A model generated the notes under the pieces. It made no database searches, was not told where the DNA came from, and saw nothing but the letters and a program-made list of their open reading frames with translations. This document shows positions 3,804 through 63,821 of a stretch of 64,000 nt of DNA, piece by piece. This DNA comes from Odiellus spinosus. Its lineage: Eukaryota; Arthropoda; Arachnida; Opiliones; Phalangiidae. Made by a program: the position numbers and the translations under genes. Location: contig OY987232.1 of the NCBI GenBank assembly GCA_963920705.1, forward strand, positions 17,645,942-17,709,941. The letters run 5' to 3'. Numbering within the stretch: position 1 is the stretch's first letter; each line of letters opens with the position of its first letter.

Positions 3804-4127
3804 CAGAAGTAGATGAAACCCTCCTTTGAAGTCTACTACTCTAATGTTCGATATAGCGCTCCTCTCTGTATGGGGAAAAATTCCCAATTTTACGAGATCA
3901 GAGGGGTCCTACTTCATACCCCCCTGTCTACGGAAAATTGGAAATTCTCTCTCTCCACAAACGACGACGTTTTTTTGACGAACTCCGAGCCTGCTAGAGA
4001 TATTCGGTGGACGAACTCACGCTCCGAAAATATCTACCGTTAGGGGGCGTACGAATCTACCCATACAGAGAGGGGTAGATAAGACCAGGGAGTAATAGAC
4101 TTCAAAGGAGGGTTTCATCGGCTTCTG
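3804..4127 (-). mobile_element. Family A MITE copy 1
   Basis: Family A is a palindromic element of about 335 bp. Its ends are CAGAAGCCGATGAAACCCTC and the complement, and subterminal inverted blocks contain CCCCTCTCTGTATGGG. The middle carries AACGTCGTCGTTTGTGGAG and a conserved run of GAGAGA. Plus orientation is taken as the one with GGGTCTTGTCTACC near the left end. This copy is reversed. Its flanks, atattaa and atattat, are an imperfect 7-bp duplication. Open frames read through the element, such as those starting MKPSFEVYY, are by-products of the inverted repeats. Confidence 0.9.
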
Positions 4128-4265
4128 ATATTATTCGATTATAATTTAATTTTTCCGGTAATTAGTATATTTAATTATTAACAAAATTATTTTACAACTA
4201 AAGAAAACTTAATCATTTCAATAAGACAATAGACCTGGCTACCCATTTTTATGATCCAAACTGGG

Positions 4266-4271
4266 TTTATT
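4266..4271 (-). terminator. Candidate poly(A) signal for the 4452-4919 gene
   Basis: TTTATT on the plus strand is AATAAA on the minus strand, about 180 nt past the stop codon. Confidence 0.35.
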
Positions 4272-4451
4272 CAACTTCCGGATGTTAGTGCTACTCATTA
4301 GGGCTAAAAATGGAAGGTCTATTATTTAGTCTCAACTATTTTATCGTCTGTTCATTGCCACCTTGGAAACTCGTCGCTAGCCAATTGGAAAACTACCGGA
4401 AGTAAAGATACCCGACTTCCCCAGTACTTGTAAGCAATTCCGAAGAGCCCC

Positions 4452-4952: not shown

Positions 4953-5290
4953 CAGAAGCCGATGAAACCCTCCTTTGAAGTCTATTACTCCCGGGTCTTG
5001 TCTACCCCTCTCTGTATGGGTTATTCTCAAAAGGCGCGATTCGTACGCCTCCTAACGGTAGATGTTTTCGGAGCGGGAGTTCGTCGAGCGAATATCTCTA
5101 GCAGCCTAGGAGTTCGTCAAAAAAACGTCGTCGTTTGTGGAGAGAGAGAATTTCCAATTTTCCGTAGACAGGGGGGTATGAAGTAGGACCCCTCCGATCT
5201 CGTAAAATTGTGAATTTTACCCATACAGAGAGGAGCGCTATATCGAACATTAGAGTAGTAGACTTCAAAGGAGGGATTCATCGGCTTCTG
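4953..5290 (+). mobile_element. Family A MITE copy 2, beside a splice acceptor
   Basis: 338 bp with a perfect 7-bp duplication, gtagtat, at 4946-4952 and 5291-5297. It lies in the presumed first intron of the 4452-4919 gene, a few tens of bp from its acceptor. Confidence 0.95.
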
Positions 5291-5713: not shown

Positions 5714-6040
5714 CAGAAGCCGATGAAACCCTCCTTTGAAGTCTACATACTCTAATGTTCGATATAGCGCTCCCCTCTGTATGGGTAAAATTCCCAATTT
5801 TACGAGATCGGAGGGGTCCTACTTCATACCCCCCTGTCTAGGGAAAATTGGAAATTCTCTCTCTCCACAAACGACGACGTTTTTTTGACGAACTCCAAGG
5901 CTGCTAGAGATATTCGCTGGACGAACTCCCGCTCCGAAAATATCTACCGTTAGGAGGCGTACGAATCGCGCTTTTTGAAACTAACCCATACAGAGAGGGG
6001 TAGACAAGACCAAGGGAGTAATAGACTTCAAAGGAGGGTT
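5714..6040 (-). mobile_element. Family A MITE copy 3, right end truncated
   Basis: Reversed copy that stops at AAAGGAGGGTT and lacks the last 13 or so bases of the terminal repeat. It is followed directly by a small right-end fragment of family H (about 6053-6080, AATAAAGTTATAGACTTTTG). Confidence 0.85.
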
Positions 6041-9176: not shown

Positions 9177-9346
9177 ACCTCAATAATATCATTGGTCCGA
9201 TTTTATATTTAATTTTATTAAAATTTTACACTAAAAACGTGTCTTAAAAATGTTTTTTGGCATCCGGTGATTCCGAAAATAATTCAAACGCACCCCTTTA
9301 AAATGTTTCTAAGCTTATTATATTATGTTAATTTATTAAAACTAGC

Positions 9347-9691
9347 CAGAAGTAGATGAAACCCTCCTTTGAAGTCTACTACTCTAATGTTCGATATAGC
9401 GCTCCTCTCTGTATGGGGAAAAATTCCCAATTTTACGAGTTAGAACTTAGAAGGGGTCCTACTTCATCCCCCCTGTCTACGGAAAATTGAAAATTCTCTC
9501 TCTCCACAAACGACGACGTTTTTTTGACGAACTCCAAGGCTGCTAGAGATATTCGCTCGACGAACTCCCGCTCCGTAAATATCTACCGTTAGGAGGCGTA
9601 CGAATCGCGCTTTTTGAAACTAACCCATACAGAGAGGGGTAGACAAGACCCGGGAGTAATAGACTTCAAAGGAGGGTTTCATCGGCTTCTG
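9347..9691 (-). mobile_element. Family A MITE copy 4
   Basis: Reversed copy with a perfect 7-bp duplication, aactagc (9340-9346 and 9692-9698). Confidence 0.93.
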
Positions 9692-10145: not shown

Positions 10146-10560
10146 CAGAGGTATATAATAACCCCTTCGGGGGGAAGTATGAAAGGTAGGCAAAATCGAC
10201 GAACAAGTGCCCGGCGTAAATCGCGGCGGATCGACACACCGCTTTACTCCCAAAAAAATAGTTACACCATTTTGAACCTCACTAAATATTCCCTACGCGC
10301 ACTTCCGGAACTCGCGAACTGAAGTCAACCTTCGACTCCATTTTAACAGACAGCCTGACTCCCGAGACAGGAAGTTCTAAACACAAATCGAGCCGTCTTG
10401 TTTATACAAAGACCATTTACTAGAGTAGCGACATTGAGAAGTCCAGCGCGAGCTAGTGGCCTAGATAGTCAGCAGCGGGCTCTTGTTGTTCGTGATTTTT
10501 AGCATTGGTAGTATAGGGGCTTTCATACTTCCCCCCGAAGGGGATTATTATATACCTCTG
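10146..10560 (-). mobile_element. Family F MITE copy 1
   Basis: Family F is a 415-419 bp element. Its ends of about 40 bp (CAGAGGTATATAATAACCCC...) are inverted repeats, each holding a CCCCTTCGGGG hairpin. The interior is GC-richer, with CATTTACTAGAGTAGCGACA. Flanks gtgataa and gtaataa are a 7-bp duplication with one mismatch. This copy is reversed relative to the other two. Confidence 0.9.
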
Positions 10561-13882: not shown

Positions 13883-14219
13883 CAGAAGCCGATGAAACCC
13901 TCCTTTGAAGTCTATTACTCCCTGGTCTTGTCTACCCCTCTCTGTATGGGTTACTTTCAAAAAGCGCGATTCGTACGCCTCCTAACGGTAGATATTTTCG
14001 GAGCGGGAGTTCGTCTAGCGAATATCTCTAACAGCCTCGAAGTTCGTCAAAAAAACGTCGTCGTTCGTGGAGAGAGAGAATTTCCAATTTTCCGTAGACA
14101 GAGGGTATGAAGTAGGACCCCTCCGATCTCGTAAAATTGTGAATTTTACCCATATAGAGAGGAGCGCTATATCGAACATTAGAGTAGTAGACTTCAAAGG
14201 AGGGTTTCATCTACTTCTG
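13883..14219 (+). mobile_element. Family A MITE copy 5
   Basis: Complete element with 7-bp flanks ttaatag and ttaatac (one mismatch). Confidence 0.92.
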
Positions 14220-16126: not shown

Positions 16127-16464
16127 CAGAAGCCGATGAAACCCTCCTTTGAAGTGTATTACTCCCGGGTCTTGTCTACCCCTCTCTGTATGGGTTATTC
16201 TCAAAAGGCGCGATTCGTACGCCTCCTTACGATAGATGTTTTCGGAGCGGGAGTTCGTCGAGCGAATATCTCTAGCAGCCTTGGAGTTCGTCCAAAAAAC
16301 GTCGTCGTTTGTGGAGAGAGAGAATTTCCAATTTTCCGTAGACAGGGGGGTATGAAGTAGGACCCCTCCGATCTCGTAAAATTGGGAATTTTATCCATAC
16401 AGAGAGGAGCGCTATATGGAACATTGGAGTAGTAGACTTCAAAGGAGGGTTTCATCGGCTTCTG
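16127..16464 (+). mobile_element. Family A MITE copy 6
   Basis: Complete; flanks atgttac and atgttaa. It abuts the right end of a family H element. Confidence 0.92.
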
Positions 16465-16756: not shown

Positions 16757-17754
16757 ATTAAAGGGATAGTCTCTGCAAATAAAAATCGTGATCATCTGTT
16801 GAATTTTGTTGAACCATTTTTGATGAAATTAGTAGTTTTTTCGTCATGGGAAAATAGATGTCTTTCTTTATTCTATGGGAGCATATTGAAATTAACAGTA
16901 AAACTGACGTCACGCGTTTGTAAATGAAAATTTGGAGCTATAGTATTTTTTTTCGGAATCAGCATGCCAAGAAACGTATCCCAGAATTTTTTTACAATTT
17001 TTAGAGACGTTTTTGACGTTTAAATTAATTTCTAAAGTTTGGTAATATCAGAGGTATATAATAACCCCCTTCGGGGGAAGTATGAAAGCCCCATACTACC
17101 AATGCTAAAAATCACGAACAACAAGAGCCCGCTGCTGACTATCTAGGCCACTAGCTCGCGCTGGACTTCTCAATGTCGCTACTCTAGTAAATGGTCTTTG
17201 TATAAACAAGACGGCTCGATTTGTGTTTAGAACTTCCTGTCTCGGGAGTCAGGCTGTCTGTTAAAATGGAGTCGAAGGTTGACTTCGGCTCGCGAGTTCC
17301 GGAAGCGTGCGTAGGGAAAATTTAGTGAGGTTCAAAATGGTGTAACTATTTTTTGGGAGTAAAGCGGAGTGTCGATCCGCCGCGATTTACGCCGGGCACT
17401 TGTTGTTCGTCGATTTTGCCTACCTTTCATACTTCCCCCCGAAGGGGGTTATTATATACCTCTGGTAATATTTGAATTTTAGTAAATATAAAATCCGACC
17501 AATCATATTATTTCTGCCTTCAACAGCGCTTATAATGTCTTAACATTAAAAGAAAAGGCCCGGGTTTGATGGTCAAGGTCTTAGGCATCTTAGACAAGCG
17601 CTGTTGAAGTCTGAAAATAATATTATTGGTCCGATTTAAAAATTAATTTAAATATCAAAAAAGTCTCTAAAATTCTGAAAAATTTTCAAATACATCTTTT
17701 GGCACCCTGATACTTAAAATAAATTCAGAAGGTTGACATTATCCCTTGAAGATT
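16757..17754 (+). mobile_element. Family E palindromic element with nested family F
   Basis: Starts at TTAAAGGGATAGTCTCTGC. Inverted arms include GACGTTTTTGACGTTTAAAT and CAACAGCGCTT (17522) facing AAGCGCTGTTG (17597). The right end ATTATCCCTTGAAG is eroded. A partial relative lies at about 52464-52716. Family F copy 2 interrupts it. Confidence 0.55.
17049..17464 (+). mobile_element. Family F MITE copy 2
   Basis: 416 bp with a perfect 7-bp duplication, gtaatat, at 17042-17048 and 17465-17471, inserted in a family E element. Confidence 0.95.
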
Positions 17755-18876: not shown

Positions 18877-19295
18877 CAGAGGTATATAATAACCCCCTTC
18901 GGGGGGAAGTATGAAAGCCCCTATACTACCAATGCTAAAAATCACGAACAACAAGAGCCCGCTGCTGACTATCTAGGCCACTAGCTCGCGCTGGACTTCT
19001 CAATGTCGCTACTCTAGTAAATGGTCTTTGTATAAACAAGACGGCTCGATTTGTGTTTAGAACTTCCTGTCTCGGGAGTCAGGCTGTCTGTTAAAATGGA
19101 GTCGAAGGTTGACTTCAGCTCGCGAGTTCCGGAAGTGAGCGTAGGGAAAATTTAGTGAGGTTCAAAATGGTGTAACTATTTTTTGGGAGTAAAGCGGTGT
19201 GTCGATCCGCCGCGATTTACGCCGGGCACTTCTTGTTCGTCGATTTTTGCCTACCTTTCATACTTCCCCCCGAAGGGGGTTATTATATACCTCTG
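18877..19295 (+). mobile_element. Family F MITE copy 3
   Basis: 419 bp; perfect 7-bp duplication gttatat (18870-18876, 19296-19302). Nearly identical to copy 2, suggesting recent spread. Confidence 0.95.
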
Positions 19296-19625: not shown

Positions 19626-19963
19626 CAGAAGCCGATGAAAACCTCCTTTGAAGTCTACTACTCTAATGTTCCATATGGCGCTCCTCTCTGTATGGGTAAA
19701 ATTCACAATTTTACGAGATCAGAGGGGTCCTACTTCATACCCCCCTGTCTACGGAAAATTGGAAATTCTCTCTCTCCACAAACGACGACGTTTTTATGAC
19801 GAACTCCGAGGCTGCTAGAGATATTCGCTCGACGAACTCCCGCTCCGAAAATATCTACCGTTAGGAGGCGTACGAAACGCGATTTTTGAAACTAACCCAT
19901 ACAGAGAGGGGTAGACAAGACCCGGGAGTAATAGACTTCAAAGGAGGGTTTCATCGGCTTCTG
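19626..19963 (-). mobile_element. Family A MITE copy 7
   Basis: Reversed; flanks gtcttac and gtcttat (7 bp, one mismatch). Nested within the 19519-20503 composite. Confidence 0.92.
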
Positions 19964-20125: not shown

Positions 20126-20446
20126 CAGAAGCCGATGAAACCCTCCTTTTGAAGTCTATTACTCCCGGATCTTGTCTACCCCTCTCTGTATGGGTTAGTT
20201 TCAAAAAGCGAGATTCGTACGCCTCCTAACGGTAGATATTTTCGGAGCAGGAGTTCGTCCACCGAATATCTCTAGCAGCCTTGGAGTTCGTCAACCAAAC
20301 GTCGTTTGTGGAGAGAGAGAATTTCCAATTTTCCGTAGACAGGGGGGTATGAAGTAGGACCCCTCCGATCTCGTAAAATTGTGAATTTTACCCATACAGA
20401 GAGGAGCGCTCTATCGAACTTCAAAGGAGGGTTTCATCGGCTTCTG
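20126..20446 (+). mobile_element. Family A MITE copy 8, nested in family H
   Basis: Perfect 7-bp duplication ctgatag, which occurs once in intact family H, showing that A inserted into H. About 15 bp are missing near its right end. Confidence 0.93.
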
Positions 20447-21034: not shown

Positions 21035-21315
21035 CAAGGAGGATTAGACAAGGAGAAGAAATGTGGGGACAGCGCGGTTCCTACTGCGTCGGCCTAAACT
21101 CCCACTCTGGGAGAACGGGGGTAGAGACGTTTCGTGGTAAAATGTTGTCACGTGGGTAAAACGAATCCTTTATGAGACGCGCTAGCTAGCGACCACGTGA
21201 CAACAGTTTACCTCGAGAATTTCCTATCCCCCCTTTCCACCCGAGTGGGAGGTTGGCTCTTCTCTCTCTAACTCAACGCAGCCCCACATTTCCTCTCCTT
21301 CTCTGATCCTCCTTG
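21035..21315 (+). mobile_element. Family G MITE copy 1
   Basis: Family G is a 280-292 bp element with ends CAAGGAGGATCAGAGAAGG and the complement, and a palindromic middle (CTAGCTAG within GCGCTAGCTAGCGACCACGTG). This copy lacks a clear flanking duplication, unlike the other five. Confidence 0.85.
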
Positions 21316-28878: not shown

Positions 28879-29158
28879 CAAGGAGGATTAGACAAGGAGA
28901 AGAAATGTGGGGACGGCGCGGTTCCTACTGCGTCGGCCTAAACTCCCACTCTGGGAGAACGGGGGTAGAAACGTTTCGTGGTAAAATGTTGTCGCGTGGG
29001 TAAAACGAATCCTTTATGAGACGCGCTAGCTAGCGACCACGTGACAACAGTTTACCTCGAGAATTTCCTATCCCCCTTTCCACCCGAGTGGGAGGTTGGC
29101 TCTTCTCTCTCTAACTCAACGCAGCCCCACATTTCCTCTCCTTGTCTAATCCTCCTTG
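28879..29158 (+). mobile_element. Family G MITE copy 2
   Basis: Perfect 7-bp duplication gataaat (28872-28878, 29159-29165). Confidence 0.95.
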
Positions 29159-31523: not shown

Positions 31524-31600
31524 ACCAAAAGTCTATGACTTTATTCCATAGAAGTAAACAACGCCCTATAGCTTAATACTATCAGCAAAGGTCCTGGTAA
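31524..31600 (+). mobile_element. Family H left-end fragment
   Basis: CAAAAGTCTATGACTTTATT through ATCAGCAAAGGTCCTGG, then joined directly to a truncated family A. Confidence 0.6.
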
Positions 31601-31604
31601 ATGT

Positions 31605-31864
31605 ACCAATTTTACGAGTTAGAAGGGGTCCTACTTCATCCCCCCTGTCTATGGAAAATTGGAAATTCTCTCTCTCCACAAACGACGACGTTTTTTTGGA
31701 CGAACTCCGAGGCTGCTAGAGATATTCGCTCGACGAACTCCCGCTCCGAAAATATCTACCGTTAGGAGGCGTACGAATCGCGCCTTTTGAGAATAACCCA
31801 TACAGAGAGGGGTAGACAAGACCCGGGAGTAATAGACTTCAAAGGAGGGTTTCATCGGCTTCTG
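31605..31864 (-). mobile_element. Family A MITE copy 9, left-truncated
   Basis: Begins at the CCAATTTTACGAG block and keeps the right terminal repeat. Breakpoint against family H. Confidence 0.85.
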
Positions 31865-33136: not shown

Positions 33137-33474
33137 CAGAAGTAGATGAAACCCTCCTTTGAAGTCTACTACTCTAATGTTCGATATAGCGCACCACTCT
33201 GTATGGGTAAAATTCACGATTTTACGAGTTAGAAGGGGTCCTACTTCATACCCCCCTGTCTACGGAAAATTGGAAATTTTCTCTCTCCACAAACGACGAC
33301 GTTTTTTTGACGAACTCCGAGGCTGCTAGAGATATTCGCTCGACGAACTCCCGCTCCGAAAATATCTACCATTAGGAGGCGTACGAATCGCGCTTTTTGA
33401 AACTTACCCATACAGAGAGGGGTTGACAAGATCAGGGAGTAATAGACTTCAAAGGAGGGTTTCATCGGCTGCTG
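33137..33474 (-). mobile_element. Family A MITE copy 11
   Basis: Perfect 7-bp duplication ttatagg. Confidence 0.95.
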
Positions 33475-35309: not shown

Positions 35310-35900
35310 ATCTCTACAATCTCCTAGACATAAACCGATTGCACCATTAGAAAGAAGACATTACATAGATTATTTTAAAATAATAAAATCTTGCCTCGCC
35401 ACTCGATAGATATTGAGCAAAAATTTCAAAAATTACCCATATCAGAAGCCGATGAAACCCTCCTTTGAAGTCTACTACTCTAATGTTCCATATAGCGCTC
35501 CTCTCTGTATGGGTAAAATTCCCAATTTTACGAGATAGGAGGGGTCCTACTTCATACCCCCCTGTCTACGGAAAATTGGAAATTCTCTCTCTCCACAAAC
35601 GACGACGTTTTTTGGACTAACTCCGAGGCTGCTAGAGATATTCGCTCGACGAACTCCCGCTCCGAAAATATCTACCGTTACGAGGCGTACGAATCGCGCT
35701 TTTTGAAACTAACCCATACAGAGAGGGGTAGACAAGACCCGGGAGTAATAGACTTCAAAGGAGGGTTTCATCAGCTTCTGCCCACATAATAAACCGATTG
35801 CACCATTAGAAAGTAGACATTCCGTATATTATTTCAAGATCATAAAATTACGAAAAAACTGTTTCGCCGCTCGATTGAAAACGAGCAAAAACCTGGGGAT
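35310..35900 (+). repeat. Diverged 172-bp satellite monomers split by family A
   Basis: CCGATTGCACCATTAGAAAG occurs on both sides of the family A insertion. Single relatives of the arrays at 42822 and 54131. Confidence 0.6.
35443..35780 (-). mobile_element. Family A MITE copy 12, in a satellite monomer
   Basis: 7-bp flanks cccatat and cccacat (one mismatch). Confidence 0.93.
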
Positions 35901-41500: not shown

Positions 41501-44500
41501 GGTAAAATTCCCAATTTTACGAGATCGGAGGGGTCCTACTTCATACCCCCCTGTCTACGGAAAATTGGAAATTCTCTCTCTCCACAAACGACGACGTTTT
41601 TTTGACGAACTCCGAGGCTGCTAGAGATATTCGCTCGACGAACTCCCACTCCGAAAATATCTACCGTTAGGAGACGTACGAATCGCGCTTTTTGAAACTA
41701 ACCCATACAGAGAGGGGTAGACAAGACCCGGGAGTAATAGACTTCAAAGGAGGGTTTCATCGGCTTTTGGCCTAATTCAGGGCAGCCACAGGTCAGGGAA
41801 AACAGGAAAAAGTCGGGGAATTTGAAAATTAAACAAAAAAAGTCAGGGAATTTTAGGATATTTTAAAAAGTCAGGGAATCTAAAGATCTTTCAAGAAGCC
41901 AGGAAATTCCAATCATTTTCTGCTTAAAAGATTCTCAGCTGACCGTGTCAGTTGTATAGATTAGAACAAAGATACGCGTGTGCAAAAAGTTTGGCGAACG
42001 CGATTATATAAAAAATAAAAGGTTAAAAACTGGGTAGTATTAGCTGAAACTAATGTTTCGTCGATTTATCATCAAAACTTTAGAGTTTGGGAAGTATTTC
42101 GAGCTATAACACGTTCCTTTGTGAAACAAACAATTTATTATCGTACCCCGACAAAGCCACGAAATTATTCTAACCCAATCAATTTCCCCAAGGAATTTTT
42201 GGCGGAGTTGGAAATTTATCAACCCGCCAACAGTTTGTTTCGATTTGTTGGTTACAGTGTTGGCATTGTTGCATCGTGAATACGAGAGGTTTTAGTTTAA
42301 TTTAAAGGGTATAAACCATTGGCAGAAGCCGATGAAACCCTCCTTTGAAGTCTATTACTCCCTGGTCTTGTCTACCCCTCTCTGTATGGGTTATTCTCAA
42401 AAGGCGCGATTCGTACGCCTCCTAACGGTAGATATTTTCAGAGCGGGAGTTCGTCGAGCGAATATCTCTAGCAGCCTCGGAGTTCGTCCAAAAAACGTCG
42501 TCGTTTGTGGAGAGAGAGAATTTCCAATTTTCCGTAGACAGGGGGGGATGAAGTAGGACCCCTTCTAACTCGTAAAATTGTGAATTTTACCCATACAGAG
42601 AGGAGCGCTATATGGAACATTGGAGTAGTAGACTTCAAAGGAGGGTTTCATCGGCTTCTGCCATTGGGAATTAGATGTTATCTCTTTCAAAATAAATTAC
42701 CAGTGTATAGATAGAAAATCTAAAGAGCACTGTAGAGGGGGAAAGGAAATTTTTCATAAAATGGAGGAACCAATTTCGAAGTTTCATTACTCAAAAGAAA
42801 TTAGAACCCATTTTAATTACTCCATTAGAAAGTAGACATTCCGTATATTATTTTAAGATCATAAAATTATGTTTCGCCACTCGAAAAAGTTGTTTCGCCA
42901 CTCGATACAAATCGAGCAAAATCCTCAAAAATGAGCCCCATCTTAAAATGGCCGTAACTTTTCTCTACGATCTCCTAGACACAAACCGATTGCACCATTA
43001 GAAAGTAGACATTCTGTAGATTATTTTAAGATCATAAAAAGTTGTTTCGCCACTCGAAAAAGGTGTTTCGCCACTCGATACAAATCGAGCAAAATCCCAA
43101 ATTGACCCCTATCATAAAATGGCCCTAACTTTTCTCTACGATCTCCTAGACATAAACCGATTGCACCATTAGAAAGTAGACATTCTATATATTATTTTAA
43201 GATCATAAAATTATGTTTCGCCACTCGAAAAAATGGTTTCGCCACTCGATACAATTCGAGCAAAATCCTCAAAAATGAGCCCAATCTTAAAATGGCCATA
43301 ACTTTTTTCTACAATCTCCCAGGCACAAACCGATTGCACCATTAGAAAGTAGACATTCTGTAGATTATTTTAAGCTCATAAAATTATGTTTCGCCACTCG
43401 AAAAATTGGTTTCGCCACTCGATACAAATTGACCAAAAATCCCAAATTGACCCCTATCATAAAATGGCCCTAACGTTTCTCTACGATCTCCTAGACACAA
43501 ACCGATTGCACCATTAGAAAGTAGACATTCCGTATATTATTTTAAGATCATAAAATTATGTTTCGCCACTCGAAAAAGTTGTTTCGCCACTCGATACAAA
43601 TCGAGCAAAATCCTCAAAAATGAGCCCCATCTTAAAATGGCCGTAACTTTTCTCTACGATCTCCTAGGCATAAGCCGATTGCACCATTAGAAAGTAGACA
43701 TTCTATATATTATTTTAAGATCATAAAATTATGTTTCGCCACTCGAAAAAATGGTTTCGCCACTCGATACAATTCGAGCAAAATCCTCAAAAATGAGCCC
43801 AATCTTAAAATGGCCATAACTTTTTCTACAATCTCCCAGGCACAAACCGATTGCACCATTAGAAAGTAGACATTCTGTAGATTATTTTAAGATCATAAAA
43901 AGTTGTTTCGCCACTCGAAAAAGGTGTTTCGCCACTCGATACAAATCGAGCAAAATCCTCAAAAATGATTGGATAAATTAATCACGGTATGTTAGGTTGC
44001 ATTCTCCCTTGTTTTTAATCTAACCGGGTCAGCTAAAACAATTCGTAATTTGTCATCGAACATAATTATAATTAAATTTGAAACGTACCGTCGAATGGTG
44101 GTAGATAACACATTGGTTTGCTGCTATCTCGAATTTCGTCTAATTCCCTGTGAAATTTTAATTGTTTCATTAATTATAATTGGTAAATGAAGGGGGGATA
44201 ATCGCTTTGCATAAATTCCAATCTTATTTAGATATTTCTAATTAGTTTTAAATGATAACAAGTCTCTAATTACGGTAGTTTTCAATTAAAAAAAAATCGG
44301 ATTTTTAAAGTTGGATAATTTTTAATATTGTTCGAAATGAACTGTCAAATTTTCCAAATAGACTACAGCCTACTTATAATATTAGCACCAATCCCAACCG
44401 CTAGAGAAAGCAATTTCGAATTCTGTAACACGAAAGGTTTAGTTTTTTTGGATTATTTCCTATCTCCACGGGCGACAAAACTTTCAGAGCCATATACCAA

Positions 44501-47500
44501 TCATAATATGCCTTATTTTAAACTTGAAACGTGATTAATTTCTTACCTAAATCGACTATTGAGTATAATATCATCGGTAAATCCGCTCTTAAGGAAGAAT
44601 TGAAAGGATGATTTATCGGCTTGTACAGCTAGAGCGTCGTAGGGTCCCACTAATTGCGGGCTTTTGAGCTTCTGCCATGATATAATATCATCGTCGTAAA
44701 AGAAGAAATAAGACAGAGGAGAAAACAAACCAGAAAAGTAATTTTCAGCGGGGTTATAACAAAAAAAGGGCGCCATGTACGAGAGTTAAGGATGTGTTTT
44801 CATGGTTGACATCTGTCCAGTACCCTCCTTCATAAACTCAAAGTTATAGGACATTTTACCAAAACCTATTAGTACCATATTTCCCGTGGAAGTAATTGTT
44901 ATAATTGGACAACTGTCCATTGACCCTATCTCGAAAAAGACATTTGGAAAATGTATCAGACAATGTCCATGCAGTGTCCCGTGGTTAATTCCGTCCCTGG
45001 TCTTCGTTAACATTGATAGTTTGAAGCCCTGAGCTGACCATAAGGTCAGTTTGCAAGCATAGAGTTTACTTAACCCTCTCTGAAGACCGTTCTTTGCCAA
45101 ATCCTCCCTAATTTAAATTTCCCCCAACGGTTTCTGATTTCCTGGTCTGCGAACAGTTCCATGGGAAAGCAATCTCTTCAGTTATCTTTACCAAGAAGGA
45201 TCAGATAAGGAGAGGAAAAGTGGGGCTGCGTTGAGTTAGAGAGAGAAGAGCCAACCTCCCACTCGGGTGGAAAGGGGGGATAGGAAATTCTCGAGGTAAA
45301 CTGTTGTCACGTGGTCGTTAGCTAGCGCGTCTCATAAAGGATTCGTTTTACCCACGTGACAACAATTTACCACGAAGCATCTCTACCCCCGTCTGTCCCC
45401 CGTTCTCCCAGAGTGGGAGTTTAGGCCGACGAAGTAGGAGCCGCGCCGTTCCCACTTTTCCTCTCCTTATCTGATCCTTCTTGTCTTTACTGAAAAATGA
45501 ATCAGTATTCCATTGTTGCAACGAAATCCCGCTAGGGTATTTTCCAACGAATGTGTTCTCGTCTACGAACCGTTACTAAGTTAGTTCCATGGGCAAGCAA
45601 CCTTTATCTCTACATAATTAAGAAAACTGGCCACAACCGGACCAACCAGGGCCTAGGGGGGAAGGTCAAATAACTTCTATTTATGTATTATTGTTTCTAA
45701 TCGTATTATAAATGCGTTAAAATCAAATCATGAAAACACACCTTAGAAATATATATCATTTTCTTTTTATAAGTCATTTTTGTGATCTAAGAAATGGAAG
45801 AGAAATACTTCTCGAAGCGGGAAATAGAAAAAACAAATCTCATACTTTAACGAGAAATCTTCCGACTCCACTCTTTCTGAACCTTTTTCTGACCGCCAAT
45901 AGAGAAACGTGAACAACTTTGGTGCCAGGAATTCTATTTAAAAATACATTAACTTTAACCTGAAATTGCATATAGATTAATCAGAAGCCGATGAAACCCT
46001 CCTTTGAAGTCTATTACTCCCGGGTCTTGTTTACCCCTCTCTGTATGGGTTAGTTTCAAAAAGGGCGATTCGTACGCCTCCTAACGGTAGATATTTTCGG
46101 AGCGGGAGTTCGTCGAGCGAATATATCTAGCAGCCTCGGAGTTCGTCAAAAAAACGTCGTCGTTTGTGGAGAGAGAGAATTTCCAATTTTGCGTAGACAG
46201 GGGGGTATGAAGTAGGACCCCTCCGATCTCGTAAAATTGTGAATTTTACCCATACAGAGAGGAGCGCTATATCGAACCAAGGAGGATCAGAGAAGGAGAG
46301 GAAATGTGGGGCTGCGTTGAGTTAGAGAGAGAAGAGCCAACCTCCCACTCGGGTGGAAAGGGGGATAGGAAATTCTCGAGGTAAACTGTTGTCACGTGGT
46401 CGCTAGCTAGCGCGTCTCATAAAGGATTCGTTTTACCCACGCGACAACAATTTACCACGAAGCATCTCTACCCCCTTCTGTCCCCCGTTCTCCCAGAGTG
46501 GGAGTTAAGGCCGACGCAGTAGGAACCGCGCCGTCCCCACATTTCCTCTCCTTCTCTGATCCTCCTTGATCGAACATTGGAGTAGTAGACTTCAAAGGAG
46601 GGTTTCATCGGCTTCTTATTAACTTAATTTAGATGATATTTAAACCAAAACCAAAGAAACTACGTCATACGGTGGTCATTAAGGTCATATTTCAGTTACG
46701 AAACAAAATATTCTCAAAAATATCTTATAACTACAAAATAATTTTTTTTTTTTTTTTTTTGGAACCATATCTTAGGAGAGTTTAAAAATCGTTAACTACT
46801 AACGGAGAACCTATCAGATTTCGATTAAACGCGACCCACAAGCCACGATTGTCATTGCCATTTTTCATAAAAAATATTAGAAACTTTTCCCAATCTTTCC
46901 TGAAAAAGAATTTTCAAAATCAATTCACTCGAAAAAAGCCAGAGCTCTGAAATTGAAAAATACTCCCACACAACCTAATACTCAACTTTTCACACGATAC
47001 CCTATACCTACTCAAAAACGGCTGACATGATCGTGCCTTTTAAATGCCTTTTTTAAAAGCATATAGACCCTATTAGCTGAAATGAAGTATTTTTTTTCTG
47101 ATTCCTTATGTAAAAATATGCTCCTCTGAATTTTTTCGTAATTTTTGAAGTACAAATACTATTAGAAAATATTTTTTAAAGTTTTATATCCTAAACACGC
47201 ATTTGAATTTTTCTACTATTGCCAAGAAGCCAATCAGAACCAAGGACTCATCCTCCGACTTACTAAGATAAAAAGTAGAAACCCTAGCGACATCTAGGTG
47301 ATAATGTAGTTTAAATTTTGGACTTGATTTTTATGAAAATTAGGTTTATAAAAGATTGTAGGCGTCATTATCATCCAAAGCTCGTTACTAGCGAAGGTTA
47401 TAGTTTTTAAAACGTAGCTGCCGCTTCTATTGGAGAAAATTTGTAAACTATTCTATTTCAAATCTTCAATTAAAACCAAGATCTTTATATTATCACCTAG

Positions 47501-50016
47501 ATGTCGCTAGGAGTTCTACGATCTAACTTCGATAGAGTCTCCTGTCATTGGCTCTTAGCTCTGATTGGTCCTTTGGCAACAGTGAAAAATTCAAACACAT
47601 AGCTAAGCCTAATTAAGTTTTAAATAATTAATTCTCATCGAAATAATTTTTTAAAAAATGTGAAAAAATTCAGCAGGATATATTTAATTGCAAGGAATCA
47701 GATAAAAAATTAAAATGGGTACGAAATTTTCACCTAATAATCTACCTTTAAAGGAATAGTGTTCTTACTAAATTTCAACCTACCATAATTTTTTATCGAT
47801 TACTTAGGCCTAATCCACCAGTAAACATTAAACTAGAAATAAATTTAAAACTTATCCAGTAAAGTAGGCTTAGCTGGATTCATGGAGATCTTGAATTTCG
47901 TCGCATTGATGAGTCAGCGATTTATCAGCTAAGGCCCGTCGTTAAAACGAGATCTCTTTGAGACTTATAATAACATTCGATTGGTAGCTGACCCTTTAAA
48001 TCGAAGAAATTCAGCTATCTCCATGAATTCAGCTAAGCCTATTTTCCGTGTAAGACTGCAATTACTCTAAATCTACTAAGCCTTGGTTCTTTTCTAAGGC
48101 TCGTTGAATACAAGTATTAGGTTTCTTAGTTACGCAATTTAGCTAGAGGACTATCCCTTTGGGGAGAGAGAGCTTTGCTTAAATGAAGGCTAAAACATTT
48201 TCCAATATATGGTGTAATCCCCCAAAAAATTGTACCTCAGAAAATACGCAATATATTTTCTATTAACTGGCTAAGAGCCAACAGGAAGTCAATAAAAAAA
48301 AAAAGCATAGAATGACGTCATTACTCGTGCCTCAATTACTTTTAGGTTTGCTTCAAGCTAGGTTGCAGTGAAAAAAAAATATATATATAGATTTTAACAG
48401 AAGCCGATGAAACCCTCCTTTGAAGTCTATTACTCCCGGGTCTTGTCTACCCCTCTCTGTATGGGTTAGTTTCAAAAAGCGCGATTCGTACGCCTCCTAA
48501 CGGTAGATATTTTCGGAGCGGGAGTTCGTCGATCGAATATCTCTAGCAGCCTTGGAGTTCGTCAAAAAACGTCGTCGTTTGTGGAGAGAGAGAATTTCCA
48601 ATTTTCCGTAGACAGGGGGGATGAAGTAGGACCCCCCCGATCTCGTAAAATTGGGAATTTTACCCATACAGAGAGGAGCGCTATATCGAACATTGGAGTA
48701 GTAGACTTCAAAGGAGGGTTTCATCGGCTTCTGATTTTAACCAAACCAATTTCCTCCAGTCAGATATATATATGGTTGGAGTTGGAAGGAGGGAAGATAG
48801 CCAAGCGCGGCCCGCCTAAATTCCAACACTCTCTCCAGACTCAAAATATCGAGGAAGAGTCCAAATCACTCGAGCCAGACAGGGATGATGACTTTTTTGT
48901 CTATTTTTTAAGTGATGGGATATGAAGTAAAACTGGACCTTTGCTGATAGTATTAAGCTACGGGGCGTTGATTACTTTTATGGAATAAAGTTATATACTT
49001 TTGATATGGTAACGATCCTTGACAGGTTACTATAGTCTGGAGGCTGTAATGCTTGAGACTCGAATGAAAAATGAGAATTTTCATATCCTGGTAGAATTAT
49101 TTTTTTTTGGGTAATTTGACATTCGATGGTGTGAGAAATATGGACAGAGACCCCAGAGAAATTTATTATGCATCAACTTGGAGGAACTGTAGATGGAGTG
49201 ACCGACTGCTAGTTAATATAACTTTTATTAATTGAAAAAGAGCATCTGTGAATGTCAATCGGGTATTAAAATATCCATTTCTTATTCGAGGTATTAACGT
49301 ATACCCGAATGTAACTGCAAACTTACAATTCCTACTCATTGTTAAATTGGAAATTGATACGAGTTATAAAATTATTCATTCGCCGATAACGAACAATTTG
49401 AAACCAAAGAGTTTCTTCGTCTATTTTAACCCAAAATTGAGATCTCGAAGCTAGAATTGTTCCTTTCGATTTAGATGAACAAAATGGAATTATTATATTT
49501 CATTCTATATTACGGATTTCGAGAAACGTCGTATTTTTATCTCGGCCCGTTATCCGTTCGAATAAATTGATGGATAATTCGTTTATTAATTAAAATTTTA
49601 TCTCCGGGTCTAATTCGTATCCAGCATTTGAATACGATTCTGTTTATATAATTTGTGGATTTATATTTACTTAAATTTATCCGAGATTAAAATATCTGAA
49701 AAAAAGCCTAGTTATCAATGGATATTCGAAGTTATTCATTATCCGATTCCGAGCTCTATTAAAATGTATGTTAGTTAGATACCCCTTCTATTGTTCCTCC
49801 AAGGTATCAAGGTATATTATGCATTTGAAAGCCAACCTGTAGTTCTTTTGAAACGAAGCGCAAGCCATCAGACGATGCTCTATCCCCACGTGATTAGGTT
49901 GAAGAGAGCAACGATCCGTGGCGATTTTTCTATCTCTTTTGCGGTTAACAGCGGCTTGGCAGAAAGCCTCCATCCCTCGAGTGAAATCCTCTTGGTCTTC
50001 CTCTTCTTCCATTTCA
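38568..50016 (-). CDS. GNAT-fold N-acetyltransferase, nine exons
   Basis: Minus-strand exons: 50016-49837, 46899-46804, 45933-45846, 44671-44547, 44147-44089, 41279-41198, 41131-41047, 39677-39596, 38692-38568. All GT-AG junctions agree in phase (2,2,0,2,1,2,0,1), giving about 305 residues from the ATG at 50012. The N-terminus is acidic (MEEEEDQEDF). Residues about 78-90 (GLWVAFNRNLIGS) fit GNAT strands 2-3. Residues 97-119 are motif A, VVHVSLLAVRKRF then R110-K-S-G113-V-G115, the R/QxxGxG/A loop that binds acetyl-CoA. Residues 135-155 (ALAVQADKSSFQFFLKSGF) are motif B. From about 200 a helical segment follows (DDEIERWRSKSLEAYQAQ), then a Leu/Glu-rich tail ending NHPTADDQS. Substrate and orthologue not recognised. 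The start could lie further upstream. Introns are 66-2937 bp and mostly full of repeats. Confidence 0.85.
38903..39238 (+). mobile_element. Family A MITE copy 13, in the last GNAT intron
   Basis: Flanks cattaag and tattaag (7 bp, one mismatch); left end reads CAGCAGCC. Confidence 0.92.
39704..40103 (+). mobile_element. Family H element, complete, in a GNAT intron
   Basis: 400 bp from CAAAAGTCTATGACTTTATT to ATTAATAGACTTTTG, with a C15 run near 39782-39796 and the TTTTTTTGTCTATTTTTAAG block. Confidence 0.75.
40536..41005 (+). mobile_element. Repeat family I, copy 2
   Basis: Nearly full unit in the GNAT intron, including CATTTCTTATTCGAGATATT and TCCGGGTCTAATTCGTATCC. Close to the copy at 49216-49765. 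Confidence 0.7.
41432..41769 (-). mobile_element. Family A MITE copy 14
   Basis: Perfect 7-bp duplication gcctaat, in a GNAT intron. Last bases read GGCTTTTG. Confidence 0.95.
41775..41885 (+). repeat. GTCAGGGAA-type degenerate repeat
   Basis: GTCAGGGAA or GTCGGGGAA recurs about four times with A/T-rich spacers. Confidence 0.5.
42019..42279 (+). pseudogene. Intron-nested ORF lacking a start, possibly frameshifted
   Basis: A stop-to-stop frame of 86 codons with protein-like composition (RAITRSFVKQTIYYRTP, FPKEFLAELEIYQPANS, FRFVGYSVGIVAS) on the strand opposite the GNAT gene, inside its 2.8-kb intron. It has no usable Met. In the neighbouring frame an ATG at 42053 begins MFRRFIIKTLEFGKYF and stops after 18 codons; one base gained or lost near 42100 would join the two frames. 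A TATA-like TATATAAAA lies at 42005-42013. It could be a recently broken nested gene or an exon with an unseen partner. The minus strand is also open, so the call is tentative. Confidence 0.35.
42323..42660 (+). mobile_element. Family A MITE copy 15
   Basis: Perfect 7-bp duplication ccattgg, in a GNAT intron. Confidence 0.95.
42822..43970 (+). repeat. 172-bp satellite, about 6.7 units, in a GNAT intron
   Basis: CCGATTGCACCATTAGAAAG recurs at 42986, 43157, 43330, 43502, 43675 and 43847 (171-173 bp apart). Other landmarks: TTTCGCCACTCGA (twice per unit) and AAAATGGCCGTAACTTTTCT. Same family as 54131-55268. Confidence 0.95.
45192..45483 (-). mobile_element. Family G MITE copy 4, in a GNAT intron
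   Basis: Perfect 7-bp duplication tctttac. Confidence 0.95.
45982..46616 (+). mobile_element. Family A MITE copy 16, split by family G
   Basis: Left part 45982-46277 and right part 46569-46616; the terminal G is lost at the right end. Lies in a GNAT intron. Confidence 0.92.
46278..46568 (-). mobile_element. Family G MITE copy 5, nested in family A
   Basis: The 7-bp duplication atcgaac (46271-46277, 46569-46575) is single in other family A copies, which proves both the target length and the order of insertion. Confidence 0.97.
47086..47728 (+). mobile_element. Large palindromic element K, in a GNAT intron
   Basis: Outer arms TCTGATTCCTTATGTAAAAATATGC and GGAATCAGA face each other. Inner arms carry TTTGAATTTTTC, GCCAATCAGA, GACATCTAGGTGATAAT and complements. 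About 640 bp, imperfect; flanking duplication not determined. Confidence 0.6.
47752..48057 (+). mobile_element. Diverged family D element
   Basis: Starts near TTTAAAGGAATAGTG, with AGTAGGCTTAGCTGGATTCA and the facing AGCTAAGCCTATTTTCC; right end missing. Confidence 0.55.
48398..48733 (+). mobile_element. Family A MITE copy 17
   Basis: Perfect 7-bp duplication attttaa, in the longest GNAT intron. Confidence 0.95.
48775..49014 (+). mobile_element. Family H right half
   Basis: From GGAAGGAGGGAAGATAGCC through AAGCTACGGGGCGTTG to the end of the element. Confidence 0.65.
49216..49765 (+). mobile_element. Repeat family I, copy 3 (fullest)
   Basis: About 550 bp from ATAACTTTTATTAATTG to TATCCGATTCCGAGCTC, same orientation as 40536-41005. 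Confidence 0.7.
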
Positions 50017-53275: not shown

Positions 53276-53612
53276 CAGAAGTAGATGAAACCCTCCTTTG
53301 AAGTCCACTACTCCAATGTTCGATATAGCGCTCCTCTCTGTATGGGTAAAATTCCCAATTTTACGAGTTAGAAGGGGTCCTACTTCATCCCCCCTGTCTA
53401 CGGAAAATTGGAAATTCTCTCTCTCCACAAACGACGACGTTTTTTGGACGTACTCCGAGGCTGCTAGAGATATTCGCTGGACGAACTCCCGCTCCGAAAA
53501 CATCTACCGTTAGGAGGCGTACGGATCGCGCCTTTTGAGAATAACCCATACAGAGAGGGGTAGACAAGACCAGGGAGTAATAGACTTCAAAGAAGGGTTT
53601 CATCGGCTTCTG
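53276..53612 (-). mobile_element. Family A MITE copy 18
   Basis: Complete ends, but the flanks gtaatat and atattag do not form a clean 7-bp duplication; an end was probably lost after insertion. Confidence 0.9.
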
Positions 53613-56582: not shown

Positions 56583-56918
56583 CAGAAGCCGATGAAACCC
56601 TCCTTTGAAGTCTACTACTCCAATGTTCCATATAGCGCTCCTCTCTGTATGGGTAAAATTCCCAATTTTACGAGATCGGAGGGGTCCTACTTCATACCCC
56701 CTGTCTACGGAAAATTGGAAATTCTCTCTCTCCACAAACGACGACGTTTTTTGACGAACTCCGAGGCTGCTAGAGATATTCGCTCGACGAACTCCCGCTC
56801 CGAAAACATCTACCGTTAGGAGGCGTACGAATCGCGCCTTTTGAGAATAACCCATACAGAGAGGGGTAGACAAGACCAGGGAGTAATAGACTTCAAAGGA
56901 GGGTTTCATCGGCTTCTG
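56583..56918 (-). mobile_element. Family A MITE copy 19
   Basis: Left terminus c at 56583; perfect 7-bp duplication ttggtac. Confidence 0.95.
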
Positions 56919-57812: not shown

Positions 57813-57828
57813 ATTTCGGTATATTTAG

Positions 57829-59220: not shown

Positions 59221-62200
59221 CCCAAGCTGCGAATTTTAAATCCCCTCATAAATATACATGAGATGATGAGAGCTTTAATAAAACTTTCTCACCAAGGATG
59301 TAAAGAAAAAAAGAAATATGAATATAAGTTAAGCCTTGCCAGGTTTCTGTCCAATTCCCACGTAGAACCAAACTTAAACAGTAATAAATTATACTTCCAA
59401 TCTCTACTAACAGGTACCAAAAGTCTATAATTTTATTCCATAAAAGTAGCTTAATACTAACAGCAAAATAATATCAGAAGCCGATGAAACCCTCCTTTGA
59501 AGTCTATTACTCCCGGGTCTTGTCTACCCCTCTCTGTACGGGTTAGTTTCAAAAAGCGCGATTCGTACGCCTCCTAACGGTAGATATTTTCGGAGCGGGA
59601 GTTCGTCCAGCGAATATCTCTAGCAACCTCGGAGTTCGTCAAAAAAACGTCGTCGTTTGTGGAGAGAGAGAATTTCCAATTTTCCGTAGACAGGGGGGTA
59701 TAAAGTAGGACCCCTCCGATCTCGTAAAATTGGGAATTTTACCCATACAGGAGCGCTATATGGAACATTAGAGTAGTAGACTTCAAATGAGGGTTTCATC
59801 GCCTTCTGATGATAGTAATATTTAAGAATATTTAATCTTAAATTCGTTTCTAGATTAACTTTAATTATATTAAAATTACACTGACATAGATTTCCCCTTG
59901 AAGACCTAATGGAATTTCAATATCATTTTGCGAAAGATCATTAATATTCGATTTATAAGATATATATAGATGTATCAAGTCATTTAGCAAAATTACCCTA
60001 ATGTTAGTTTCGTTGCGTTAAATGTTGTATAAGTTTAATTTAATATAACTTGTGTTAGGAAATTAAATATAATTAATATCAAAAGTCTATAACTTTATTC
60101 CATAAAAGTAAACAACGCCCCGTAGCTTAATACTATCAAATCCCAACACTTAAAAATAAGCAAAAAAGTCATCACCCCTGTATGACTCTAGTGATTTGGA
60201 CTCTTCCTCGATATTTTGAGTGGGGAGATAGTGTTGGAATTTAGGCGGGCCACGCTTGGCTATATTGTCCAAAGAGTGGCGCTTTTGATTTCATTATTTA
60301 CACAGTGACTGCGGCCGCTAGTGAATCAGGATTAACAGAAGTAGATGAAACCCTCCTTTGAAGTCTACTACTCGAATGTTCCATATAGCGCTCCTCTCTG
60401 TATGGGTAAAATTCACAATTTTACGAGATCGGAGGGGTCCTACTTCATACCCCCCTGTCTACGGAAAATTGGAAATTCTCTCTCTCCACAAACGACGACG
60501 TTTGGTTGACGAACTCCAAGGTTGCTAGAGATATTCGCTCGACGAACTCCCGCTCCGTAAATATCTACCGTTAGGAGGCGTACGAATCGCGCTTTTTGAA
60601 ACTAACCCATACAGAGAGGGGTAGACAAGACCAGGGAGTAATAGACTTCAAAGGAGGGTTTTTATCGGCTTCTGGGATTAAGTACTTCTACAAAAGAAAC
60701 GCGCGAAAGCTAGAGGTTTCCTAATGACGTCATAAAATCATCATCGCCGGATTAATGATCGTGTTACAACCCCTTTAAGCGGTTATTACTAAACACATTT
60801 AAAGAAATCGCTGGCGTTTAATTCATTTTTGAAGATTTTTTTTTAAGCTCTGGTGGAAAAGTGCCGAGATAAAGTGTAACGATATTTTAATTAAATTTAG
60901 AATCTCGTATTTACGGTCGAGGAGACGTGAAACCTCTTGGTAAAACCCTAGATTGGCCTAATATGAGATCTAATATCACCAAAAGTCTATCTCTTTATTC
61001 CTTAAAAGTAAACAGCGCTCCGTATCTTAATACTATCAGTAAAGGTCCTGTTTTACGTCCTAGCCATCACTTAAAAATAGACAAAAAAGTCATCACCCCT
61101 GTCTGGCTCGAGTGATTTGGACTCTTCCATGATATTTTGAGTCTGGAGAGAGTGTTGGAATTTAGGCGGGCCGCGCTTAGCTATATTGTCTTCCCCTCCT
61201 TCCAACTCCGGAATAAATTTCTCCACAGAGTGGAATCTGATTTTACTATTTACATGGCGTCTATGGCCGCTAGTGTGTCTCGAATCAGAATCTACCTGTA
61301 AATTTACCAGGACCTTTCCTGATAGTATTAAGCTACGGGGCGCTGTTTACTTTTATGGAATAAAGTCATAGACTTATGATATTAATTTTTTTATCTCTAA
61401 GTTTACGTCAATTTTTTTTACTAAGTTTTAAAAACATTTTTAGTGTTAAATATTATGGATTTTATATGAATAAAATAATTAAAAAATTATAGACATGGCA
61501 TTTGCCTAAAAAACTACACAATAGTCCTGGTCGATTTCCAAAACCGGAAGTCTAGAGAACCTCGCGAAAATTTTGGCGGGGAAAACTTTTTGTCACGTGA
61601 TCGTCCGCCATCTTTTTGTAGTGTGAAAATAGCTACAGACTAACCAACGCCTCCTATACTTTATCATATAGGAAGCGTTGGACTAACAACTTGAATTTGG
61701 TTTGTGGGAAATAAAATTAGAAATAGTCTGGCAACCTCTTACTACAAAAAGATGGCGGCGCGGCTATGAGACAAGGGCCCATTTCCGGCAAATTGACCAG
61801 GACTATTAACACCAGTCGTAATTGTAAACTCTCAAACAAGCCACGTTTTTGAAAGCTCCTGTTTTTCAACTTTAATTATTGAATTTAAATTATCCGCGTT
61901 TAATTCTTCTATTCTTTGCGTGTTTTAAAATTAAGTTTAGTTTTGTGAAATTATTTTTATTTTGTATTAAAAGATGACGCAGTTTGGAAATTAAGGAACA
62001 GAAAAAAAGGAAAGATAAATTTCATTAATTAATATTATTCTATTATTACATACGTTATATTATGTCATTTAACTAATTAATATAAAAAAGGCCATCAAAT
62101 TGGTATCAGTGTATTAAATACCGTATTTTTGACGGATAATAGCTATTAATTAATGGCGCATTGATACGTTATACTAAACCCCATAGAGAAAAAAATAGTA

Positions 62201-63353
62201 TACCCTAACTTCTCCTGAATTGATCCATTACTAAAGACAATGAAACAAAACTCAGGAAGATATAAATTATTAATAACACGAATTGGAATGGGATTTTTTT
62301 TCTTCCGGTATATAGTGAGTAATTATCAAAGAGAGCTTTCCTAATTAGGCTTAGCTGTTAATGGCTGAACGTTTAATTACTACTCCAATCACTGATGTCC
62401 AATATGAATATATCAATAATAATAATTAAAGTGTTATTGAAATATATTTTTATTTCAATTTAATTTCAATTTTTATTTGATAAATACCTAGAATGGTTAA
62501 AATGTAGTATATAAATACAGGATATGACGTCAATACGCCTTAAAATAGCTTAATTCTTTCATTATACCGTTGCCGTAGTGCAATTGCCACTTATATTGTG
62601 TTTTATGGTCGAAATACGACTCGTATACTCGCGTAATTGGTTGCAGACTCTTCTTAGAATGAAGATTTTATATCTCCATGGGCTTCTGTTAAGCCTACTT
62701 TCATAGTTAGGGTTAAAAATTGATTTTTTGCTTAGTCATGCTTAATATTCTGTTATTTTTACTAATGAACTAGGTTTATTTAAACGATAACGAACTGATA
62801 GAAAAATTACTTGTGGTTGAGAATCAATTTAGCCTAGCTTGAAACAGAAACCCGAAATCTAATCAAGAAGGATTAGATAAGGAGAGGAAATGTGGGAACG
62901 GCGCGGCTCGTACTGCGTCGGCCTAAACTCCCACTCTGGGAGAACGGGGGTAGAGACGTTTCGTGGTAAATTGTTGTCATGTGGGGAAAACGGATCCTTT
63001 ATGAGACGCGTAGTAGCCAACGACGCTAGCGACCACGTGACAACAGTTTACCTCGAGAATTTCCTATCCCCCCTTTCCACCCGAGTGGGAGGCTGGCTCT
63101 TCTCTCTCTAACTCAACGCAGCCCCACTTTTCCTCTCCTTCTCTGATCCTTCTTGATCTAATCTATCTCTGATGGGCATTCTATAATAATTTCTCAATAT
63201 TCTCTATGCCGGCATATTATAGATTGGGTTAATATTGATTCATCTGGACATTTGCATTTACTGATTAAACAGTAGGTGGGATTCCAGGACGAATGTTGCA
63301 ATTACGATTCATTGGCTACAAAGCTTTAAATGTCGAAATTAGACTTTATCAGG
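59221..63353 (+). CDS. Partial gene, two exons, unidentified
   Basis: Exon 1 (59221-59413) reads PKLRILNPLINIHEMMRALI, KLSHQGCKEKKKYEYKLSLA and NSNKLYFQSLLT, and ends at AACAG/GTACC in phase 1. Exon 2 (63273-63353) follows CTGATTAAACAG and reads GGIPGRMLQLRFIGYKALNV then EIRLYQ, ending in phase 1 at GTAGGC. The phases agree. Translation may start at the Met codons near 59263, or the exon may be internal. An alternative acceptor at 63286-63287 also keeps the frame. The intron of about 3.9 kb contains families H, A, B and G. The next exon should lie past 63353 and was not seen before the window end. Product not recognised. Confidence 0.5.
59416..59474 (+). mobile_element. Family H left-end fragment at a splice donor
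   Basis: CCAAAAGTCTATAATTTTATT begins two bases after the GT of the 59413 donor; interrupted by family A copy 20. Confidence 0.6.
59475..59808 (+). mobile_element. Family A MITE copy 20
   Basis: Complete but diverged at the right end (TCATCGCCTTCTG); flanking duplication not clear. Confidence 0.9.
60079..60335 (+). mobile_element. Family H left part, cut by family A
   Basis: CAAAAGTCTATAACTTTATT through CTGCGGCCGCTAGTGAATC; the right half is absent after the family A insertion. Confidence 0.65.
60336..60674 (-). mobile_element. Family A MITE copy 21
   Basis: Perfect 7-bp duplication ggattaa (60329-60335, 60675-60681). Confidence 0.95.
60980..61377 (+). mobile_element. Family H element, complete copy
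   Basis: From CCAAAAGTCTATCTCTTTATT to AGTCATAGACTTATG, with all central landmarks. Flanks ATATCA and ATATTA are suggestive only. Confidence 0.75.
61522..61805 (+). mobile_element. Family B MITE copy 3
   Basis: 284 bp, TA-bounded, same orientation as and almost identical to 1047-1330. Confidence 0.9.
61806..62600. other. AT-rich spacer
   Basis: No coding or repeat structure recognised. A degraded family D remnant follows at about 62620-62825 (AAGCCTACTTTC, GGTTTATTTAAACGATAACG). Confidence 0.35.
62864..63155 (+). mobile_element. Family G MITE copy 6
   Basis: 292 bp; perfect 7-bp duplication atctaat. Confidence 0.95.
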
Positions 63354-63485
63354 GTAGGCGTAGGTAGTTAATCTTGAAGGCCTATTGATATGACGCAATG
63401 AAATTAAAGGGATGATCTCGTCAAAAACGTTGATGAAAATACAGCCAAGTTTAATTTAAATATAAATTTTTCTTTTAAATATCAA

Positions 63486-63821
63486 CAGAAGCCGATGAAA
63501 CCCTCCTTTGAAGTCTACTACTCTAATGTTCGATATAGCGCTCCTCTCTGTATGGGTAAAATTCCCAATTTTACGAGATCGGAGGGGTCCTACTTCATCC
63601 CCCTGTCTACGGAATATTGGAAATTCTCTCTCTCCACAAACGACGACGTTTTTTGGACGAACTCCAAGGCTGCTAGAGATATTCGCTGGACGAACTCCCG
63701 CTCCGAAAATATCTACCGTTAGGAGGCGTACGGATCGCGCCTTTTGAGAATAACCCATACAGAGAGGGGTAGGCAAGACCCGGAAGTAATAGACTTCAAA
63801 GGAGGGTTTCATCGGCTTCTG
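63486..63821 (-). mobile_element. Family A MITE copy 22
   Basis: Complete terminal repeats; flanks atatcaa and gtgatac do not match. Confidence 0.9.

Follow-up and report, generated by a model that had tools for sequence, protein, structure and literature searches.

Tol2, Hermes, hobo and Ac/Ds belong to the Ac group of the hAT superfamily of DNA transposons. Transposases of the hAT type carry a BED finger, an RNase H-like core and a C-terminal dimerisation domain, and those of the P superfamily are THAP-type. Tol2 inserts at TNA(C/G)TTATAA(G/C)TNA (PMC2753552, PMC4818426), and it and the other Ac-group elements have in common an 8-bp target-site duplication (TSD) and a target that is palindromic, position 2 of the duplication being T. 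P and 1360 tend to ANAGT...ACTNT, with a modal duplication of 8 bp for P and 7 bp for 1360, whose target is GTTNAAC (PMC3276498). Galileo mostly duplicates 7 bp (8 bp in three copies), at GTANTAC or GTATTAC within AANGT...ACNTT (PMC4168063, PMC2775673). Families of hAT elements with 5-, 6- and 7-bp duplications have been named hAT5, hAT6 and hAT7 (PMC12730594). Here, we report three families (A, F and G) of miniature inverted-repeat transposable elements (MITEs) in a 64,000-bp stretch, the window, of the Odiellus spinosus genome (Opiliones; assembly GCA_963920705.1, contig OY987232.1, positions 17,645,942 to 17,709,941). All three duplicate 7 bp at a target that resembles that of Tol2, and they were probably mobilized by a hAT-type transposase.

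Copies and structure

Copies were identified by BLAST with one member of each family as the query, and every copy count given below is confined to the window. The 31 copies (Table 1) comprised 22 of family A (consensus, 338 bp; mean divergence from the consensus, 2.8%; 7317 bp covered), 3 of family F (417 bp; 0.6%; 1250 bp) and 6 of family G (281 bp; 2.7%; 1716 bp), which together occupy ~16% of the window. One G copy (46278-46568) is nested within an A copy (45982-46616).

An earlier reading of the window, made from its letters alone (the sequence-only reading), had described the families as palindromic, with unrelated interiors, and had suggested that one uncharacterized transposase lineage may move all three, naming P and Dada as the known groups near 7 bp. 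The word palindromic suits G best (self-complementary at 68% over its full length); A and F have inverted arms rather, of 72 bp in A (81% match, with a weaker inner pair) and of 41 bp, perfect, in the F consensus. Although the interiors do appear unrelated, A and F have 17/30 terminal bases in common (permutation frequency, 0.001).

Duplication length

Insertions of A, F and G duplicate exactly 7 bp. A perfect 7-bp duplication flanked 17/31 copies (A, 10; F, 2; G, 5), in keeping with the at least 15 cases claimed from the sequence alone, and all seven duplications quoted there (gtagtat, gttattt, gtaatat, gttatat, gataaat, cttcagt and tctttac) were present. With one mismatch allowed the count rose to 24/31, and with two to 26/31. 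No copy had a perfect duplication of 5, 6, 8, 9, 10 or 11 bp, and none had one of 8 bp even when two mismatches were allowed. The near misses at other lengths were one copy with one mismatch at 5 bp and one copy with two mismatches at each of 6 and 9 bp. The seven copies that lack a 7-bp duplication with at most one mismatch were A at 5714, 31596, 45982, 53276, 59475 and 63486 and G at 21035.

Two controls gave the background. Pairing the left flank of one copy with the right flank of another yielded 1 perfect match among 930 pairs and 19 with one mismatch. Sliding the right flank by 1 to 10 bases either way yielded no perfect match at any of the 20 offsets, and a single-mismatch case, one each, at two of them. 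They replace an estimate from random pairs 337 bp apart, whose rate of 7-bp matches (0.6%) had probably been raised by the repeats themselves.

Two family-blind scans were also run. The first took CA...TG ends with ≥10/12 matching inverted-repeat bases at a spacing of 80 to 3000 bp; it recovered 15 elements with an exact 7-bp duplication, every one belonging to A, F or G. At other lengths it found none at 8 to 11 bp, 1 at 6 bp, 2 at 5 bp and 18 at 4 bp. The second scan took any termini (≥13/14 inverted-repeat bases; 80 to 1500 bp). At 7 bp it again recovered members of A, F and G exclusively (14 hits), but lengths of 8, 9 and 10 bp gave 7, 2 and 1 hits, respectively. All seven of its 8-mers were self-complementary, and for that reason these hits are probably the next bases of inverted arms; both 9-bp hits were an A copy and a G copy viewed one base shifted.

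For 6/31 copies the joined flanks aligned across the junction with an insertion-free relative, 4 of them cleanly: G within A (atcgaac), A within a repeat described below as family J (ctgatag), and the A copies at 32252 (gttattt) and 56583 (ttggta). The matches for A at 38901 and F at 17049 were diverged. At the clean empty sites, therefore, the 7 bp were single before insertion.

Target-site preference

Target bases were counted over the 48 half-sites that remain when the seven copies listed above are set aside (24 sites; no more than one TSD mismatch each); p values are uncorrected, are relative to the composition of the window, and count both flanks of each insertion. The third base outside the duplication was T in 36/48 half-sites (p = 1e-9) and A in 5/48. 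Position 2 of the duplication was T in 35/48 (p = 6e-9), mirrored by A at position 6. Two preferences were weaker: the first outside base was A in 25/48 (p = 0.003), and position 5 was T in 24/48 (p = 0.0065). The remaining positions had p ≥ 0.02; position 1 was G in only 14/48. The target is thus palindromic, TNA|nTnnnAn|TNA.

This preference, inside and outside the duplication, is common to A, F and G. Third-outside T and position-2 T occurred in 24/32 and 22/32 half-sites of A, 5/6 and 6/6 of F, and 7/10 and 7/10 of G; the two coincided in 15/32, 5/6 and 5/10, compared with 11.6% of positions in the background. Three or more of the four signature bases were present at 20/24 sites, and the complete set at 4/24; elsewhere in the window the corresponding rates were 10.7% and 1.2% of positions. 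The motif is that of Tol2 with its half-sites brought together by one base. The P group differs from it at the third outside base: in our own alignment, which sets the GT of its targets at the start of the duplication, that base is A.

An older family, J (399 bp; ends CAAAAGTC...GACTTTTG, CAAAAG...CTTTTG), is present as two full copies (39705-40103 and 60980-61378) and eight single ends (6076, 16116, 19519, 20506, 31526, 49003, 59418 and 60080). Its junction base (second from the element) is as in A, F and G at 11/12 ends, and J may be related to these three. It was nevertheless not accepted as another 7-bp family: at that length its two full copies showed 2 and 4 mismatches, and third-outside T was found at only 5/12 ends.

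A probable hAT-type transposase with a 7-bp stagger

In our view, A, F and G are probably non-autonomous cut-and-paste MITEs of a putative hAT transposase, or a few closely related ones, encoded elsewhere in the genome. A single transposase lineage behind all three families is supported, though not proven, by their common target signature. This part of the sequence-only reading is supported, as a fixed 7 bp and a common target preference are what one lineage would be expected to leave; its pointer away from hAT, toward P or Dada, is not. A single enzyme for A, F and G is plausible, though a less secure conclusion than a single type of enzyme.

What chiefly favors hAT over P is the third outside base, which is T in most half-sites and A in few. 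The Ac-type palindromic target is found in the window, with T at position 2 (35/48) and the Tol2-like TNA flank (36/48 and 25/48). Among Ac-group relatives, Tol2 conservation is 46% at +/-3 and 40% at +/-1 (PMC2753552), Hermes prefers nTnnnnAn (PMC10368747), and zebrafish Ds has a weak motif with a consensus similar to that of Tol2, without the motif described from maize (PMC4825651). In Hydra hATx-6 the biased positions are sites 2 and 7 of the duplication and, with a strong A, flanking base +3 (PMC8721813).

The ends of F point the same way. F starts CAGAGGTATATAA and the Tol2 right end CAGAGGTGTAAAA, an agreement of 11/13 bases that is equaled by 0.04% of background 13-mers beginning with CA; F agrees with the Tol2 left end at 10/13 (the Tol2 ends start CAGAGGTGTAAA). 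Mar, a hAT MITE of the Buster group from Drosophila willistoni, is likewise non-autonomous and has the end CAG(G/A)GGTA, and its CAGAGG variant agrees with F at 8/11 bases; unlike F, it has an 8-bp duplication with a central TA (nnnTAnnn).

In length, the closest hAT precedent is hAT7, which shares the 7-bp duplication and is hAT by its transposase, but comes from rust fungi (Puccinia and Melampsora), as twenty families with a TET/JBP gene (PMC12730594). A paper on Repbase gives, as an example command, the extraction of hAT entries annotated "7-bp TSD" (PMC4455052), so that such entries may exist in Repbase, perhaps in animals. In searches of one open-access library, no description of an animal hAT element with a 7-bp duplication was seen among the papers listed. 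Two candidates were discarded: in PMC1852546 the 7-bp TSD belongs to an RTE retroelement, and in PMC2871265 the 7 bp refers to minisatellites.

Each transposase protomer would read the usual hAT half-site: T, N, A outside the cut, then N, T inside it. Compared with Hermes or Tol2, the two half-sites, and hence the points of strand transfer, would be brought together by one base pair, which would give a 7-bp rather than an 8-bp stagger, and repair of the 7-base gaps would leave the duplication. If the half-site was kept and its spacing alone changed, it is the distance between active sites, and not the bases read, that would set the length of the duplication in hAT and P elements; known transposase structures offer a test of this idea. 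Tentatively, and as a possibility we hold less firmly than the assignment to hAT, an animal hAT lineage may have shortened its stagger from 8 bp to 7 bp with the half-site TNA|NT unchanged, paralleling 1360 and Galileo (7 bp, versus 8 bp in P), and may cross-mobilize three or more MITE families, whose interiors are unrelated and which make up ~16% of the window.

Several observations weigh against assignment to hAT. Terminal patterns are YARNG for hAT and CANRG for P-type elements, and the consensus ends of F (CAGAG) and G (CAAGG) match both, so that they cannot separate the two. The A end (CAGAA) fails YARNG at position 5 and does not fit CANRG either, and 2/6 G copies (CAAGA) also fail YARNG at position 5. 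The ends of G agree with those of A and F at 6/30 and 7/30 bases, which is chance level. Characterized hAT elements normally make 8-bp duplications (PMC12730594), a hallmark from which the window departs, its length fitting only the hAT7 variant. Repbase places non-autonomous elements in one superfamily when their TSDs are of equal length and their first 11 bases differ by at most one mismatch (PMC4455052); no pair among A, F and G agrees to that extent (best, A-F, 7/11), nor do F and the Tol2 right end (9/11, with unequal TSD lengths). Since hobo, a hAT element, has GTNCGNAC (PMC3276498), GT...AC inside the duplication does not separate hAT from P, and the contrast comes down to the third outside base alone. 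Of the hAT elements, only Tol2 and hATx-6 have this base in print, with Ds by likeness, so that T at this position is a strong lead for hAT and not proof.

To these points is added the outcome of the coding search. Out of 429 open frames of ≥45 aa, 109 of ≥60 aa were scanned against Pfam; a further 148 lay mostly in tandem arrays or A copies, and 172 were of 45 to 59 aa. No transposase was among the 19 Pfam families matched by these 109 frames (best E value, 0.0067), a scan that could miss a decayed or intron-split one, and a THAP-type P transposase was likewise absent among them. Some A copies contain long open frames, and family A was considered as coding. Its consensus has no open frame of ≥60 aa and substitutions are even over the three codon positions (63, 76 and 66); the frames therefore look fortuitous. 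Other frames in the window have a secreted, low-complexity, cuticle-like appearance that gives the impression of arthropod DNA. Exact scans with terminal inverted repeats gave no match for A (30 bases) in prokaryotic contigs or for A, F and G in viral contigs, and carry little weight given the prokaryotic and viral nature of those collections.

Other candidate transposases

A P-superfamily transposase of the 1360 or Galileo kind, with 7-bp duplications at a GT...AC palindromic target, is an unlikely mover of these families, yet the best placed of the others. It was considered as the first choice, as 1360 (modal TSD, 7 bp; GTTNAAC) and Galileo (7 bp; GTANTAC/GTATTAC) make duplications of the right length, and the 7- to 8-bp range of the superfamily accommodates that of the window. 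Several window duplications have a P-like look (gtagtat, gtaatat and gttatat), T at position 2 and the penultimate A agree with P, 1360 and Galileo alike, while the A just outside the duplication agrees with P and 1360; Galileo also shares long inverted repeats with the window families. It was demoted because the third outside base disagrees: in our alignment P, 1360 and Galileo place A there, where the window has mostly T. The GT...AC of 1360 and Galileo is also stronger, position 1 being G in few half-sites here, and the F terminus is Tol2-like. The earlier use of 7 bp as a sign of P or Dada over hAT is thus not supported, in view both of published hAT families with 5, 6 and 7 bp and of flanks that are hAT-like and not P-like. 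More generally, the superfamily of a MITE should not be assigned from duplication length alone; here 7 bp would suggest P and the flanking bases suggest hAT.

Somewhat more doubtful still is a Kyakuja (KDZ) or Dada transposase, or one of an undescribed lineage with this duplication length and CA...TG ends. In the fungus Laccaria bicolor, two Kyakuja families fit in length and ends (7-bp TSDs; CA...TG) but have no inverted repeats (PMC12730594), whereas A and F have inverted arms and G is self-complementary throughout. The 6- to 7-bp duplications of Dada also fit. Dada elements are without terminal inverted repeats and, in cases with definable termini, target small-RNA genes; the window elements have inverted arms, and neither Rfam (gathering threshold) nor a tRNA search gave a match in the window. 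Dada, which the sequence-only reading had named among the groups near 7 bp, and Kyakuja were both set aside on inverted repeats and targets.

That transposases of different superfamilies moved the three families and arrived at 7 bp by coincidence is very improbable, for although the G ends are unlike those of A and F and few half-sites were scored for G (10) and F (6), third-outside T and position-2 T are seen in each family separately.

Table 1. Positions, orientation and target-site duplications of the A, F and G copies in the window
Family	Position	Strand	TSD	Remarks
A	3804..4127	-	1 mismatch (atattaa/atattat)	
A	4953..5290	+	gtagtat	338 bp
A	5714..6040	-	absent	one end truncated
A	9347..9691	-	aactagc	
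A	13883..14219	+	1 mismatch	
A	16127..16464	+	1 mismatch	
A	19626..19963	-	1 mismatch	
A	20126..20446	+	ctgatag	host repeat is family J; other J copies have single ctgatag
A	31596..31864	-		truncated
A	32252..32588	+	gttattt	insertion-free relative 1329-1452
A	33137..33474	-	ttatagg	
A	35443..35780	-	1 mismatch	
A	38901..39238	+	1 mismatch	
A	41432..41769	-	gcctaat	
A	42323..42660	+	ccattgg	
A	45982..46616	+	2 mismatches	split by G element
A	48398..48733	+	attttaa	
A	53276..53612	-	not clear (3 mismatches)	
A	56583..56918	-	ttggtac	insertion-free relative 44388-44536
A	59475..59808	+	2 mismatches	
A	60336..60674	-	ggattaa	
A	63486..63821	-	absent (5 mismatches)	
F	10146..10560	-	1 mismatch (gtgataa/gtaataa)	
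F	17049..17464	+	gtaatat	end CAGAGGTATATAA, Tol2-like
F	18877..19295	+	gttatat	
G	21035..21315	+	absent (4 mismatches)	
G	28879..29158	+	gataaat	
G	33868..34147	+	cttcagt	
G	45192..45483	-	tctttac	
G	46278..46568	-	atcgaac	within A; site single in other A copies
G	62864..63155	+	atctaat	

Other repeats in the window

Palindromic families with TTAA at or near their ends, and termini such as AGGGAGRATG...CATTCTCCCT, were found at 2457-2954, 8770-9179, 14512-14954, 37979-38419 and 50316-50761; they look like TTAA-target MITEs of the Kolobok or piggyBac type. An inverted-repeat element of ~287 bp (ATAGTCCTGGTCGATTT...) is present in three copies (1044-1332, 12163-12451 and 61521-61807) and was perhaps recently active, since they are ~99% identical.

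One tandem repeat of ~172 bp occurs in two places ~11 kb apart (42816-43968 and 54136-55267; roughly 90% identical). Further arrays lie at 29503-31234 (unit, ~143 bp), 51406-52461 and 57100-57978, the last two of which read as open frames of short peptide repeats and are probably non-coding satellites.

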